Made by a program: the position numbers and the translations under genes
The notes under the pieces: generated by a model
What the model was told of the DNA's origin: nothing
The model's input: the letters and a program-made list of their open reading frames with translations, nothing else
The model's database searches: none
Shown: piece by piece, positions 41,510 to 57,927 of the stretch
Numbering within the stretch: position 1 is the first letter of the stretch
How the letters are laid out: every line of letters starts with the position of its first letter
NCBI GenBank assembly: GCA_021292105.1
Contig: CM037869.1
Location: forward strand, 12,978,471-13,042,470
Direction: 5' to 3'
Length of the DNA stretch: 64,000 bases
Source: Anadara kagoshimensis
Lineage: Eukaryota > Mollusca > Bivalvia > Arcoida > Arcidae

Positions 41510-41860
41510 TCTCTGCGGTAGCTCAGTTGGTAGAGTGCTCGCTCCGTAAGTGGGAGGTCGTGGGTTCGAACCCCGACCGGGTCTGACCCAAGACTTGAAA
41601 GTGGGTAGTGACTGTTCTTTCGCCAAGCACTCGGCATTACGAAATGAAAGTCACGGTTCTTTCGGATGGGAACTTAAAATAAACGAGGTCCCGTGTCACG
41701 GTGGGCTTGGCACGCTAAAGAACCCTGCTGTATAATGCCATAAGCGCAGCGCACAGGCAAAATTTCTGCACTTTCGTCTATAGCTGGCAACGTCTCGATA
41801 TAAGTGAAATATTCTTGACTGGGACGTTAAACACCATTACTCACTCACTCAAACTAAGAT
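41510..41860 (+). mobile_element. Intact tRNA-derived SINE (reference copy)
   Basis: Head GCGGTAGCTCAGTTGGTAGA (A box TAGCTCAGTTG) and GTGGGTTCGAACCCCGACC (B box), then a body with GTGACTGTTCTTTCGCCAAG, AATAAACGAGGTCCCGTGTC and TCTATAGCTGGCAACGTCTC, ending GACGTTAAACACCATTACTC plus ACTC repeats. Transcribed by Pol III in known SINEs. Other copies are fragments or reversed. Confidence 0.9.
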
Positions 41861-52984: not shown

Positions 52985-53676
52985 TACCCAGTTGTGTAGC
53001 TTAGACTCGTCCATGTTTATAAACACTGTCATCAGATCGTGGATGACCTATGATCTGACGACAATACTAACAACGCGTTTATTATAACATTAGGGTTATT
53101 GTGTCAAATAAAGCGTAGAATGGCATGATTTTATACTAACGCAACACGATATCATTACGGATTCATTACCGTAGCTACATTTCCGCCATGTATTGCCCCG
53201 GTAAAAACTTCACCAATAACATTACTACTGGTAAATTCATAAGATGATGAAAATATTTGAAATAATCATTATGATCCTTTAAGCCTTAGGCTTGGTTTTT
53301 TTTAAAGTTTTGTCGACAAGCTTGTTTTCTACGTTTCTTTTTCCATTTTATGATTACTTTGTTCTTATATACAGTCTTGGATTATTTTTGGGAGTACTTA
53401 TATAATAATGTTCCGATCACACTATGTAGATTTGATTCAACAGCACCATTCCAGTAATGTTGGGTTATGGTCGATGCATTAGATCAGTTGGTGCCATTTT
53501 TTTCGGTCGCCTTTAATGAAGGATCTGGCAACATGATCATCACCCATCACCACCGTATAAACGGTATGTCAGTGGCCGGATCACTACATCAGATCCGCTG
53601 TTGTGTGTCTATGGTGTTTTGAGGTTTTATTAGAGATGTACATCTAGTCAGTCATGGCAAATGTGTCCAATTTTCA

Positions 53677-53720
53677 AGGGGGGGGGGGGGGGCTTGTCCT
53701 CTGAACCCCCCCCCCCCCCC
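53677..53720. repeat. Adjacent poly-G and poly-C runs
   Basis: About fifteen G, then GCTTGTCCTCTGAA, then about fifteen C: a hairpin-capable relic of a transposon end. Confidence 0.8.
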
Positions 53721-54431
53721 AGGCAGGCGAAGCGCTGCCGCTTTGGTCTGATCCCTAAGACCATTTAAATATTTATTTTGAACGAGTGCGTTTATGTTTA
53801 TGTTAGGGATCGCGTGTGAATACTTCTTTACATAATATCAACACTTAACCATACATATATATGGTTAAGATGTTTCACAAAAAGACGAGAGGCAGTGATG
53901 AAAAAACCCTAACCTGTAAATATTACCAACCAATCCATGTATTTGTAAATTTATAAATTTGATGTCCATAGAATGAATAGTGACTTATAGGCCCAATGGG
54001 CCGGGTGTAATATTATGTATTATTGTTTATGACACTTGTATTAGATGTTATGCACAAGTCCCTTTAATAAAAAACTTACTTATATATTCATTATTACTAA
54101 AACCCGTTTTTCAGACATCGTGGCCACATTTTTACAAATATTTATAATTTTTTTCTAGTGGTATCATTTTATTAGATACAATGTCAGTCTCTGTTCAAAA
54201 TCTTTTTACAAAACGTCTGCACACGTCATAAATCTTCAATTTTATTTCAAATTGAAAAATTTCTATGTCTAACAAGAGTGGTTTTAAACACCATGTCACA
54301 CTGACCCAAGGTTGACAAGTGTTCAGTACCACTTTCTTTTATCATGCTAATTTGGTCAGGTAATTTGTGATGTGATCCACGTAACCAGCTATCAGTCATT
54401 GCTTTTAAAGATAAAAAGGTAGAGTTTTTGG

Positions 54432-54618
54432 GCATAGAAAATTTTCAGTGAAGTGAAATGGAACATTTTACGGAGTGTGCAGACTTTCTGAAATAAGATT
54501 TTTAGCAGAAACTGACATTGTACATTAATAAAATGATACCACTAGAAAAATTGTAAAAAAATTAAAATGTGGTCTCAATCTCTGAAAAATGTAATTTTAG
54601 TAATAATGGATAGGGCAT
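54432..54618. repeat. Dispersed repeat, copy B (partner at 36762-36960)
   Basis: See copy A; about 190 bases, direct orientation, clearly diverged. Confidence 0.65.
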
Positions 54619-54940
54619 AATCATGCATTATATAGGACCCGGAGCCCCCTCCACCAAGTGTTAAAAACACGCAGGGTGTAAAAAAATATTTCGTCTACGA
54701 GTATTTCCCCGAGAAAACCACTACAAGACGTGAAGGCGTCACTACTCATGCTTATTCAAAGGAAAATTTAAAAAAAAATCTATGTTTAAACTCTGCAATT
54801 ATCATATTTTATTGCAAACAATATTAATGTGTGTTTATTGGAATATACTCCCTCATGCAAAGTATTTCCTCAGCTAAATTTGGTCAAATATATTTTGGTC
54901 CTTTGGAAATATCTTCAACATCTTTAATAAAATTTTGGTC

Positions 54941-54990
54941 CAAGCACTACTGATGAGGAATTGTATTCCGAAACGGCCGTCTAGTGTTGT
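54941..54990 (+). ncRNA. Hammerhead ribozyme, type I layout
   Basis: All conserved parts are present in order: stem I 5' strand CAAGCACTA, core CTGATGA (54950-54956), stem II GGAAT-TGT-ATTCC, GAAA, a minimal stem III (ACGGCCGT), cleavage triplet GTC ending at 54981, then stem I 3' strand TAGTGTTG. CACTA pairs perfectly with TAGTG. Such minimal motifs are known from Penelope-like elements and retrozymes in invertebrates. No reverse transcriptase is visible nearby. Activity is inferred from sequence. Confidence 0.85.
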
Positions 54991-55066
54991 AAAATTAAAC
55001 GGGTAATGCTTATGTAAGATAATTATTAAATGTGCGTTTTAGCTTTTGTATATGGCAATATGCCAT

Positions 55067-55067
<1 letters not shown>

Positions 55068-55120
<53 letters not shown>
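55068..55120. repeat. (AT)n microsatellite
   Basis: About 26 AT dinucleotides, 80 bases after the hammerhead motif. Confidence 0.97.
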
Positions 55121-55949: not shown

Positions 55950-57413
55950 CAGTGGCGTAGCAGCTTCTCAGTATGCTTTCATGCTTAAGCATGCACATAA
56001 TTTTTTGGTTAAAAATCTTGGTTTGCATCAGTGTTCGAAATATTTGATTTATTTCTAACACTGCTTCCCATTATTCTTTTTTTCACTTTCGGATATTTAA
56101 CGTGAGATTGTTCAATTCCCCTTCTTTTTTAAAAAAAAACCTCTTTTAAATCGATTTAATATTATGTATGTTTGTTTCCTTCCTATTTGTTTTAGTATGG
56201 ATGGATTAGTATGTACTAGTATGTTTTTGATTTTGTACCACGATACAACAAAAAATTATTTGTTTCTTTTTTTTTTTGTCAAAAAAAACCCCACAATAAC
56301 AAACCACAGGACCATATATTGACATCATCGATAAAATACGAGAAAGGCACATCAATCATTAACGAAGCCCACAGCAGAGTATTCCCTCTTCATACTGTGA
56401 TATGGACTTCCTAAGGGTTGGAGATGCCACTGCAGCAAAAATGTTATTGTTGAAAACATTGTGGGAGAATGCCCATCTAATTACACTAATATATAGACCT
56501 ATGTGGAAGCTACGCAGATAGGAAATGATATACTAGTCATATATCATTTTTTTTAAATTTAATCATAAAATACATTCAAAAATGGTATGTGACAATAATA
56601 CATTTTTTATTTAATTTTTATGATTAAATTAAAAAATGATATATGACATACTGAATAAAATGTACTTACATATATATATATGCATGTACTTGGCAATGAC
56701 TAGACATATCGTAAAAACAATAGAAGAATGATTGAACAAACACAAGACATACTAAAAGATCCTCAAGTATTTTTAAATAAAAAAAAAAGAATACTAGTAA
56801 CTTAACGTGTGTTTAAAATTTCTATTTATGGATAATATATGCCTGTCATCGTTGGTTCGTGGTTTTAAATGGGGTTATTTTCGAATTGTTCGTTTAAAAT
56901 TACATGAATACTATTGAAATTGTCTAAAGTCGGGAGTTTTATAATAGTTGGTTTGTGTTTACGGCGTCAGTTTTGTTTTCCCGACTGTTTTTGTGAACAT
57001 GGTTATGGTGCGTTCTTAACTTCTTGGTGCTTATTGCTATTTCCATTTACTTTTTAGTTTCGATTTTTTAATGTTACTTAACATATTTTGAAGCACTAGA
57101 CGGCCGTTTCATGATAAAGTTCATATCCTTCATTTTTGAAAATATATTCTAAATAGTAACATACAAAAAAGTCTTACATGTCTGTCATGATTTGGACTAA
57201 ACATTCACAATTTATTTTAACATAATTATTAAAAATGTTATATTTTGAAGTATATAAAGTTGACAATTTTACTTGCCGGGGAGCAAGAGAACGCGTCTTG
57301 TAACTTGTTGAATTTTTTTCCAAGGAGCATGCCCCGGACCCCATAGCATTTCGGGGACTTCATCCCCTTACACGTTAAGCATGCACATTCATTTTACTCT
57401 AGCTACGCCACTG
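55950..57413. mobile_element. 1464-bp hAT-like element inside the SINE, TSD GGTGC
   Basis: Ends CAGTGGCGTAGC and GCTACGCCACTG, flanked by GGTGC (55945-55949, 57414-57418). Subterminal TAAGCATGCACA occurs at both ends. Contains a further palindromic MITE and a decayed hammerhead 3' half. No transposase frame. Confidence 0.9.
56535..56650. mobile_element. Palindromic MITE, innermost layer
   Basis: GTCATATATCATTTTTTTT ... AAAAAATGATATATGAC with an extra inner arm AAAAATGGTATGTGAC. Related to 28857-28915. Confidence 0.7.
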
Positions 57414-57612: not shown

Positions 57613-57927
57613 AGTCGCTACCAACTTTTTTTTAGTTTTTGGGTCAGACCCGGCGGGGGTTCGAACCCACGACCCCCACTTACGGAGCGAGCACTCTACC
57701 AACTGATCTACCGCAGTGGTGCCACCTTTTCTAAAGGCCAGTTGAATTTGATCTTATTTGCATTTTATTTGTGCTATTTAAACCTGTATGTAAGGGCCAC
57801 TTGTCCATAAAGACCACGTTTATTGAATCCTTTGGGTAGCCGCTATAGACAGGCTTGACTGTACTGCAAGTCCCGCAGTGTGGTTTAGGTAATTCTAGTA
57901 GGAAAAAAGGAATAAGTTTTAATATTT

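Follow-up and report, generated by a model that had tools for sequence, protein, structure and literature searches.

A type I hammerhead ribozyme repeat of Anadara kagoshimensis, probably a non-LTR retrozyme, and the common 3' end of its copies

Metazoan non-LTR retrozymes, as described for coral, mussel and axolotl, carry a type I hammerhead ribozyme in units of a few hundred base pairs, have a low GC content and occur as head-to-tail copies (PMC7229834). In the mussel, the units measure ∼350 to 390 bp and ∼5,000 ribozymes were counted (PMC7229834; Cervera and de la Pena 2020), in a family that the same source describes as devoid of most of the canonical nucleotides for contact between loop 1 and loop 2. 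According to that source, target-site duplications (TSDs) of metazoan retrozymes, when present, are longer than 4 bp, a highly self-paired circular RNA is a usual trait of the predicted circles rather than a condition, closure by a host ligase was obtained in vitro with axolotl and mussel retrozyme RNA, and the newt and axolotl ribozymes with a short helix III are stated to pair (PMC7229834). As for their mobilization, a review states that metazoan retrozymes have revealed no conserved motif that would point to a mobilizing autonomous element, and it calls the role of the hammerhead in Penelope-like elements (PLEs) unknown (PMC7761336).

Two other groups come close. Plant LTR retrozymes are likewise non-autonomous and self-cleaving, with a proposed circular RNA intermediate (PMC7229834, PMC7761336); they are described with type III hammerheads, LTRs, a primer-binding site and a 4-bp TSD. 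In PLEs with minimal hammerheads, the ribozyme precedes a short tail, the 3' end is internal and fixed, and tandem and inverted neighbors also occur (PMC11167929, PMC3846280). A purified PLE protein was reported to start reverse transcription internally, which leaves a genomic tail of 30 to 40 bp that Frangieh et al. (2024) explain by two adjacent internal start sites; that system used mainly uncut RNA as its substrate and did not depend on cleavage in vitro (PMC11167929). The Penelope element of the rotifer Adineta vaga is given with a 31-bp tail (PMC3846280).

The repeat analyzed here combines a type I hammerhead, a unit within the 150- to 450-bp range with a GC content below 50%, and head-to-tail multimers, as metazoan retrozymes do. 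Its short stem III with a palindromic tetraloop resembles the one described for an amphibian ribozyme (PMC7229834), whereas most of the copies sampled are single and 5' truncated, with a common 3' end and no clear TSD. Unlike plant LTR retrozymes, it has a type I ribozyme and no LTR layout, and unlike PLEs it has a unit too short for a reverse transcriptase (RT) or GIY-YIG endonuclease gene, as well as a different core and tail sequence. It shares with PLEs the hammerhead, the short tail, the internal fixed 3' end and the tandem and inverted neighbors.

Hammerhead ribozyme motif in the window

The window, that is, the whole stretch of 64 kb that was analyzed, contains the following parts of a predicted hammerhead ribozyme.

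54943-54988, + strand: predicted type I hammerhead ribozyme with inner stem I, core, stem II and stem III (descriptor scan, Rfam)
54943-54949 and 54982-54988, + strand: stem I, AGCACTA/TAGTGTT, 7 bp including one G-T wobble
54950-54956, + strand: hammerhead core CTGATGA (sequence)
54957-54961 and 54965-54969, + strand: stem II, GGAAT/ATTCC, 5 bp, with the 3-nt loop TGT (sequence)
54970-54973, + strand: GAAA, followed by CGGCCG (sequence)
54973-54980, + strand: palindrome ACGGCCGT, a minimal stem III with a palindromic tetraloop, which could pair two ribozymes (sequence)
54981-54982, + strand: predicted self-cleavage site after C54981, at the end of GTC (standard hammerhead layout)

A preliminary description made from the letters of this DNA had claimed a complete hammerhead at 54941-54990, and its parts are indeed all present in order on the + strand. 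The pairing of CACTA with TAGTG, which it extended by further pairs, corresponds to the 7-bp stem I, beyond which an outer helix AATTTT/AAAATT is possible. Stem I has an internal loop, loop 2 (TGT) is present as well, and the minimal stem III consists of an A-T and a C-G pair around GGCC. A full descriptor, which required the core, UH and minimum lengths of 4 bp for stem II, 1 bp for stem III and 5 bp for stem I, matched 54943-54988 as the single site on both strands of the 64 kb, and none of 400 dinucleotide shuffles contained one.

The best Rfam family was Hammerhead_1, with 26.7 bits over 54944-54987 (E = 4.1e-5, 90-nt scan), below its curated gathering score of 34 bits. By the rule set out in the preliminary description, that a score below threshold refutes the motif, the ribozyme would formally be rejected, but the rule proved too strict, since the presence of thousands of related copies in the genome outweighs the low score. 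Larger Rfam scans, over 10 kb or the full window, did not list the ribozyme, and a scan of a 29-kb stretch missed a further copy of the repeat as well (locus L117, see below); because scans on this scale miss known copies, their silence is no evidence here. The exact ribozyme core was absent from viral contigs, and a looser pattern matched four bacterial records. Judged by homology within its own genome, which bears out the earlier claim, we take the motif to be a real type I hammerhead ribozyme.

A Pfam search of 8 open reading frames of the window gave no RT or endonuclease match, and only two weak matches below the curated cut-offs. Several other features lie in the same DNA. Upstream of the ribozyme, 54107-54589 is made of nested inverted repeats (arms 54177-54232/54467-54522, 54137-54174/54526-54563 and 54107-54132/54564-54589, 82 to 87% complementary) that form a palindromic element of ∼480 bp, perhaps a foldback or MITE-type transposon. 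An uninterrupted (AT)n microsatellite of ∼50 bp occupies 55069-55118, soon after the end of the retrozyme copy. Two tRNA-like stretches, at 41516-41579 on the + strand (30.9 bits) and 57652-57711 on the - strand (19.2 bits), share GTAGAGTGCTCGCTCCGTAAGTGGG and look like a tRNA-derived SINE; the second stretch is followed by a long T run on its own strand. At 53676-53722, a G run lies opposite a C run in a strong hairpin that draws weak microRNA matches in Rfam.

The repeat family and the ends of its copies

A 601-bp query around the motif gave at least 76 matches in its own genome (1.115 Gb, 36 contigs). Among the 75 non-self matches listed, 73 fell within 54843-55022 of the window, most of them within 54844-55006, and the other two belonged to the AT repeat near 55069-55120; the repeat therefore does not include the window flanks. 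Among the long non-self matches listed, the best covered 157 bp at 93% identity. The resulting features are as follows.

54844-∼55018, + strand: 5'-truncated retrozyme unit copy (own-genome search; nhmmer unit profile at 54844-55005, E = 5.8e-46)
54982-55018, + strand: 3' tail, from the ribozyme cut to the common 3' end of the element (copy ends; genome-wide tail pattern)
57086-57123, - strand: second relic, in which the 3' half of this ribozyme and a portion of the tail remain (nhmmer, E = 4.9e-4)

The 3' end of the window copy, ∼37 nt past the predicted cut, was set by eye from the tail ATGTAA at 55012-55017. The copy amounts to about half a unit and is devoid of a 12-nt block present in many other copies. 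Instead of the 54.6 to 55.0 kb suggested earlier as the extent of an element, a single truncated unit of a tandem repeat is thus found. The second relic includes an exact 17-nt match at 57094-57110 (0.02 expected window-wide at up to 3 mismatches) and lies 2.1 kb from the window copy, in the opposite orientation.

Genome-wide, the core pattern occurred 9,265 times (4,678 + 4,587), versus 127 (42 + 85) for the reversed control, and the tail pattern (the tail itself reads TAGTG..AATATGTAATT) occurred 7,062 times (3,556 + 3,506), versus 0 (0 + 0). Head-to-tail arrays were found at loci L009 to L015, at L030 and elsewhere. Twenty-two complete units from 11 arrays measured 325 to 378 nt, 16 of them 337 to 340 nt, and the GC content of the L009 unit was 33.5%. 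Mean identity within arrays was 99.9% for L010, 99.6% for L009, 98.8% for L030, 97.9% for L011 and 95.0% for L013 (one pair), while between arrays it averaged 94.0%, with a 95th percentile of 98.8% (212 pairs). Only the young arrays L009 and L010 clearly exceeded this percentile, and the uniformity of three of the five did not surpass that of the most similar pairs from different arrays. A second copy was present in the same region at 16 of 75 loci, and 8 of 22 neighboring pairs were in opposite orientation. The L010 array, which has several units, is immediately preceded by three TTAGGG repeats at ∼72.98 of 73.28 Mb of contig C5, near the contig end. Telomere-linked insertion is known for some PLEs.

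On ribozyme type, unit size, GC content and tandem layout, we assign the repeat to the metazoan non-LTR retrozymes as a new member, and the window copy is best described as a 5'-truncated copy of a non-coding retroelement with a unit of ∼340 nt and one predicted type I hammerhead in each unit. Of the two origins proposed in the preliminary description, Penelope-like or retrozyme, the latter stands; membership in the PLEs was discarded, since units of mostly 337 to 340 nt are too short for an RT or GIY-YIG gene. An LTR retrozyme was also discarded, as the best covariance model is type I and not type III, and the copies have no LTR-internal-LTR layout.

To describe how copies end, core matches on contig C1 were taken in the order listed, which avoids a choice by best match. 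The sample comprised 80 regions covering 93 of the first 100 places; the 7 left out were one in a region fetched before (L023), four chance-like matches and two members of the family (near 1.113 and 8.812 Mb). Unit BLAST yielded 105 extents; removal of 2 that were interrupted at the edge of a region and of 6 whose 3' flank recurred in another extent left 97. Positions are given as unit phase, where 0 is the first base after the ribozyme cut and phase 33 to 42 therefore means 34 to 43 nt past it.

The 3' ends fell at phase 33 to 42 in 73 of the 97 copies, with a mode at 36 (21 copies) and a Rayleigh R of 0.92; 7 more lay at phase 24 to 32 and 17 elsewhere. Among extents with a full core the proportion was 65 of 79, and in a first set picked by similarity it was 27 of 34 rows, a count that includes duplicates and the window copy. 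The 5' ends, for their part, were scattered (Rayleigh R 0.21), with a slight unevenness (p 0.012) that is at least partly explicable by the choice of copies that hold a core; only one lay within 5 nt of the cut (3.1 expected). Copies had a median length of 207 nt and reached 1,704 nt, 80 being one unit or shorter and 17 longer than one unit, and the latter run through the ribozyme cut. In the copies printed, no poly(A) or simple-repeat tail was evident at the 3' end, which is internal unit sequence. Since a cut linear RNA would end at the cut and not 37 nt beyond it, the template would have been either re-closed or uncut. The common 3' end past the cut, together with scattered 5' ends, appears to be a new observation for retrozymes; judged by titles and abstracts, which are no proof of absence, we recognized no earlier report of such an end.

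Clear TSDs were not found in the flanks of two sets of 41 and 30 extents. Flank matches scoring at least 16 numbered one in the set of 41 and two in the set of 30, and the re-paired controls had none. The one at L038 shows a 32-nt period and is probably an older tandem repeat, and the same may hold for those at L019 and L025. Matches scoring at least 10 were obtained for 6 of the 41 (two of them being one duplicated locus), versus 1.25% of controls, and for 2 of the 30, versus 27 of 861 controls; most of the shorter matches lay away from the extent borders.

Folding predictions were made for the window motif and for 68 aligned copies, in which 92.0% of the ribozyme pair cells can pair; these copies were chosen by the core pattern, so that their invariant core is so by construction. 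Covariation in the stems did not exceed that of shuffles in the 68 copies, as expected when copies decay neutrally. The single-strand folding energy around the motif was unremarkable (z = -0.38). So was that of one L009 unit folded as a circle (-63.1 kcal/mol, z -0.8; an energy as low was reached by 21 of 100 shuffles), which thus does not display the high self-pairing usual for such RNAs. For a 71-nt piece, the homodimer was predicted as a swapped double hammerhead (-32.7 versus -11.4 kcal/mol for the single strand), a structure that was not predicted for the homodimer of an 86-nt window piece. Among the 68 copies it was predicted in 23, and a full hammerhead in none of the single strands; the dimer energy gain and the dimer energy lay within the shuffle range (65/300 and 158/300, respectively). 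These folds give only partial backing to a pairing of two ribozymes through the palindrome ACGGCCGT, which analogy with the amphibian ribozymes suggests as a lead.

Penelope-like elements of the same genome

Fifty GIY-YIG matches were listed in the genome. In the frames at L119 and L125, RVT_1 and GIY-YIG occur together, both above the Pfam cut-offs. Sorting by eye and BLAST gave four PLE families, A (L117 to L120), B (L115, L121), C (L116, L122 to L124) and D (L125). Another locus, L113 (contig C22, 287804-288031), appears by eye to be a bacterial-type UvrC frame and not a PLE; it is open only with TGA read as W, giving 616 aa under code 4, and the contig may come from a mollicute-like associated bacterium.

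By pattern, hammerhead-like sequence is located just past the endonuclease frame in families B, C and D, while none was seen in family A. In L115, L116 and L121 to L125, these sequences read CTGAAGA..GAAAGCGCTA or ..TGAAAGTACTA, with a stem I of 8 bp in L115, 3 bp in L121, 10 bp in family C and 6 bp in family D, and with stem III palindromes AGCGCT (families B and C) or AGTACT (family D). Rfam scans of narrow PLE pieces returned nothing for L116 and L125 and 11.9 bits for L115, and we call these sequences hammerhead-like on the basis of the pattern and of the literature.

The copies of family C have a fixed 3' end. With L116 as the query, the ends of all 45 non-self rows fell 42 to 57 nt past the cut, with 21 at exactly 42. 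A single query could impose its own end, so the search was repeated with L122, an independent insertion of the family, and 43 of 44 non-self rows spanning the cut ended at 42 to 74 nt, 20 at exactly 42; the remaining row is a duplicate of the query locus, and the longer rows enter the AT repeat that follows. AT repeats frequently adjoin family C copies at this side. In family B, the ends formed two clusters ∼52 nt apart, 15 of 61 rows at 56 to 67 nt (8 at 64) and 17 at 106 to 119 nt (8 at 116), although duplicated loci account for some of the rows and the more distant cluster may reflect the end of the query itself. A further 24 rows ended at or before the cut, two exactly at it, many of them being short or at inverted junctions, and the other 5 ended between the clusters or shortly after the cut. 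A pair of nearby ends agrees with the two adjacent start sites described for the PLE system (PMC11167929).

A fixed 3' end a short distance past the hammerhead, as in PLEs, was thus observed for the retrozyme and also for family C (with two queries) and family B, at tail lengths of 42, or 64 and 116, versus 37 for the retrozyme. Of the 50 matches listed, 12 GIY-YIG loci (L113 being one of them) had their flanks inspected, together with one 7-kb region, and the retrozyme tail was found in none. Against the same 12 loci, unit BLAST gave nothing better than E 0.03, except for a retrozyme copy with an intact core at L117 131-346, ∼1.1 kb from the GIY-YIG domain of a family A PLE. Given the density of copies, this proximity may be due to chance.

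Possible routes of copying

The genome holds thousands of copies, among them tandem units that span the cut; most sampled copies share one 3' end, their 5' ends are scattered, and their end layout is similar to that of PLEs. We consider that the repeat is probably a non-LTR retrozyme copied by a PLE-type RT from a circular or multimeric RNA, and PLEs are its likely helpers; the PLE part of this proposal is put forward because the retrozyme ends resemble PLE ends and PLE RT starts internally. We infer self-cleavage, closure by a host ligase, PLE priming and multiple passages round the circle, and with them the RNA circle and the identity of the copying enzyme. Retrozyme arrays would be transcribed, and their hammerheads would cut the transcript once per unit, possibly acting as ribozyme pairs through the palindromic stem III. 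A host ligase would close the cut units into circles. An RT, most likely that of a PLE, would then begin at an internal position that is always the same, ∼37 nt beyond the cut, and copy backwards across the joined cut, in some cases making more than one round. As it would drop off at varying points, the copies would share their 3' end, differ at their 5' ends and include head-to-tail arrays.

That PLE RTs copy specifically the closed retrozyme circle, from this fixed start at ∼37 nt, across the joined cut and round the circle, is quite possible, and we offer it tentatively. Against the main proposal count the lack of a tail match in the PLE loci examined, the mismatch in tail length, the 24 of 97 extents that end elsewhere, the failure of Rfam to recognize the PLE hammerhead-like sequences, the mere 3 bp of stem I in L121, the absence of clear TSDs and the unremarkable fold of the circle. 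The stem covariation and the double-hammerhead energy, neither of which exceeds shuffles, and the three arrays of limited uniformity count against it as well. In addition, the need for cutting is weakened by the published PLE system, whose main substrate was the uncut RNA (PMC11167929). This last point also favors a different route, in which the retrozyme would be copied uncut by LINE-type machinery that reads the 3' tail, the ribozyme being a processing device only and the arrays deriving from array transcripts. LINE and SINE insertions, too, typically share a 3' end and are truncated at the 5' side, and both single and array copies are present. However, the 3' end is internal to the unit, and no poly(A) or simple-repeat tail is evident there in the copies printed; the units within L009 and within L010 are almost identical, as if derived from one circle (unequal exchange could also account for this); and frames of the PLE kind for RT and endonuclease are present in the genome. 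We regard LINE-type copying as rather unlikely.

Two further readings dispense with a separate retrozyme or with an RNA step. The repeat could be a 3' fragment or pseudo-LTR family of a PLE, as the order of parts (hammerhead, short tail, fixed end) is the same, the tail of PLE family C is of similar length, and one copy sits beside the family A PLE in L117; nevertheless, the arrays are built of units of mostly 337 to 340 nt, the unit search against the 12 GIY-YIG loci gave at best E 0.03 apart from that copy, and the PLE cores differ in sequence (CTGAAGA..GCGCTA), which makes such an origin very improbable. Less probable still is a satellite DNA spread by recombination with the hammerhead as a relic: tandem arrays with alike units do exist, but the 80 of 97 sampled copies that are no longer than one unit are dispersed, and their common 3' and scattered 5' ends are a mark of reverse transcription.

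With the common 3' end and its likeness to the ends of PLEs, the question of what mobilizes retrozymes becomes directly testable. The finding also bears on what hammerheads do in PLEs. If copying by PLEs is true, a module of ribozyme plus tail would mark RNA for Penelope-type insertion, which would name the helper of metazoan retrozymes.
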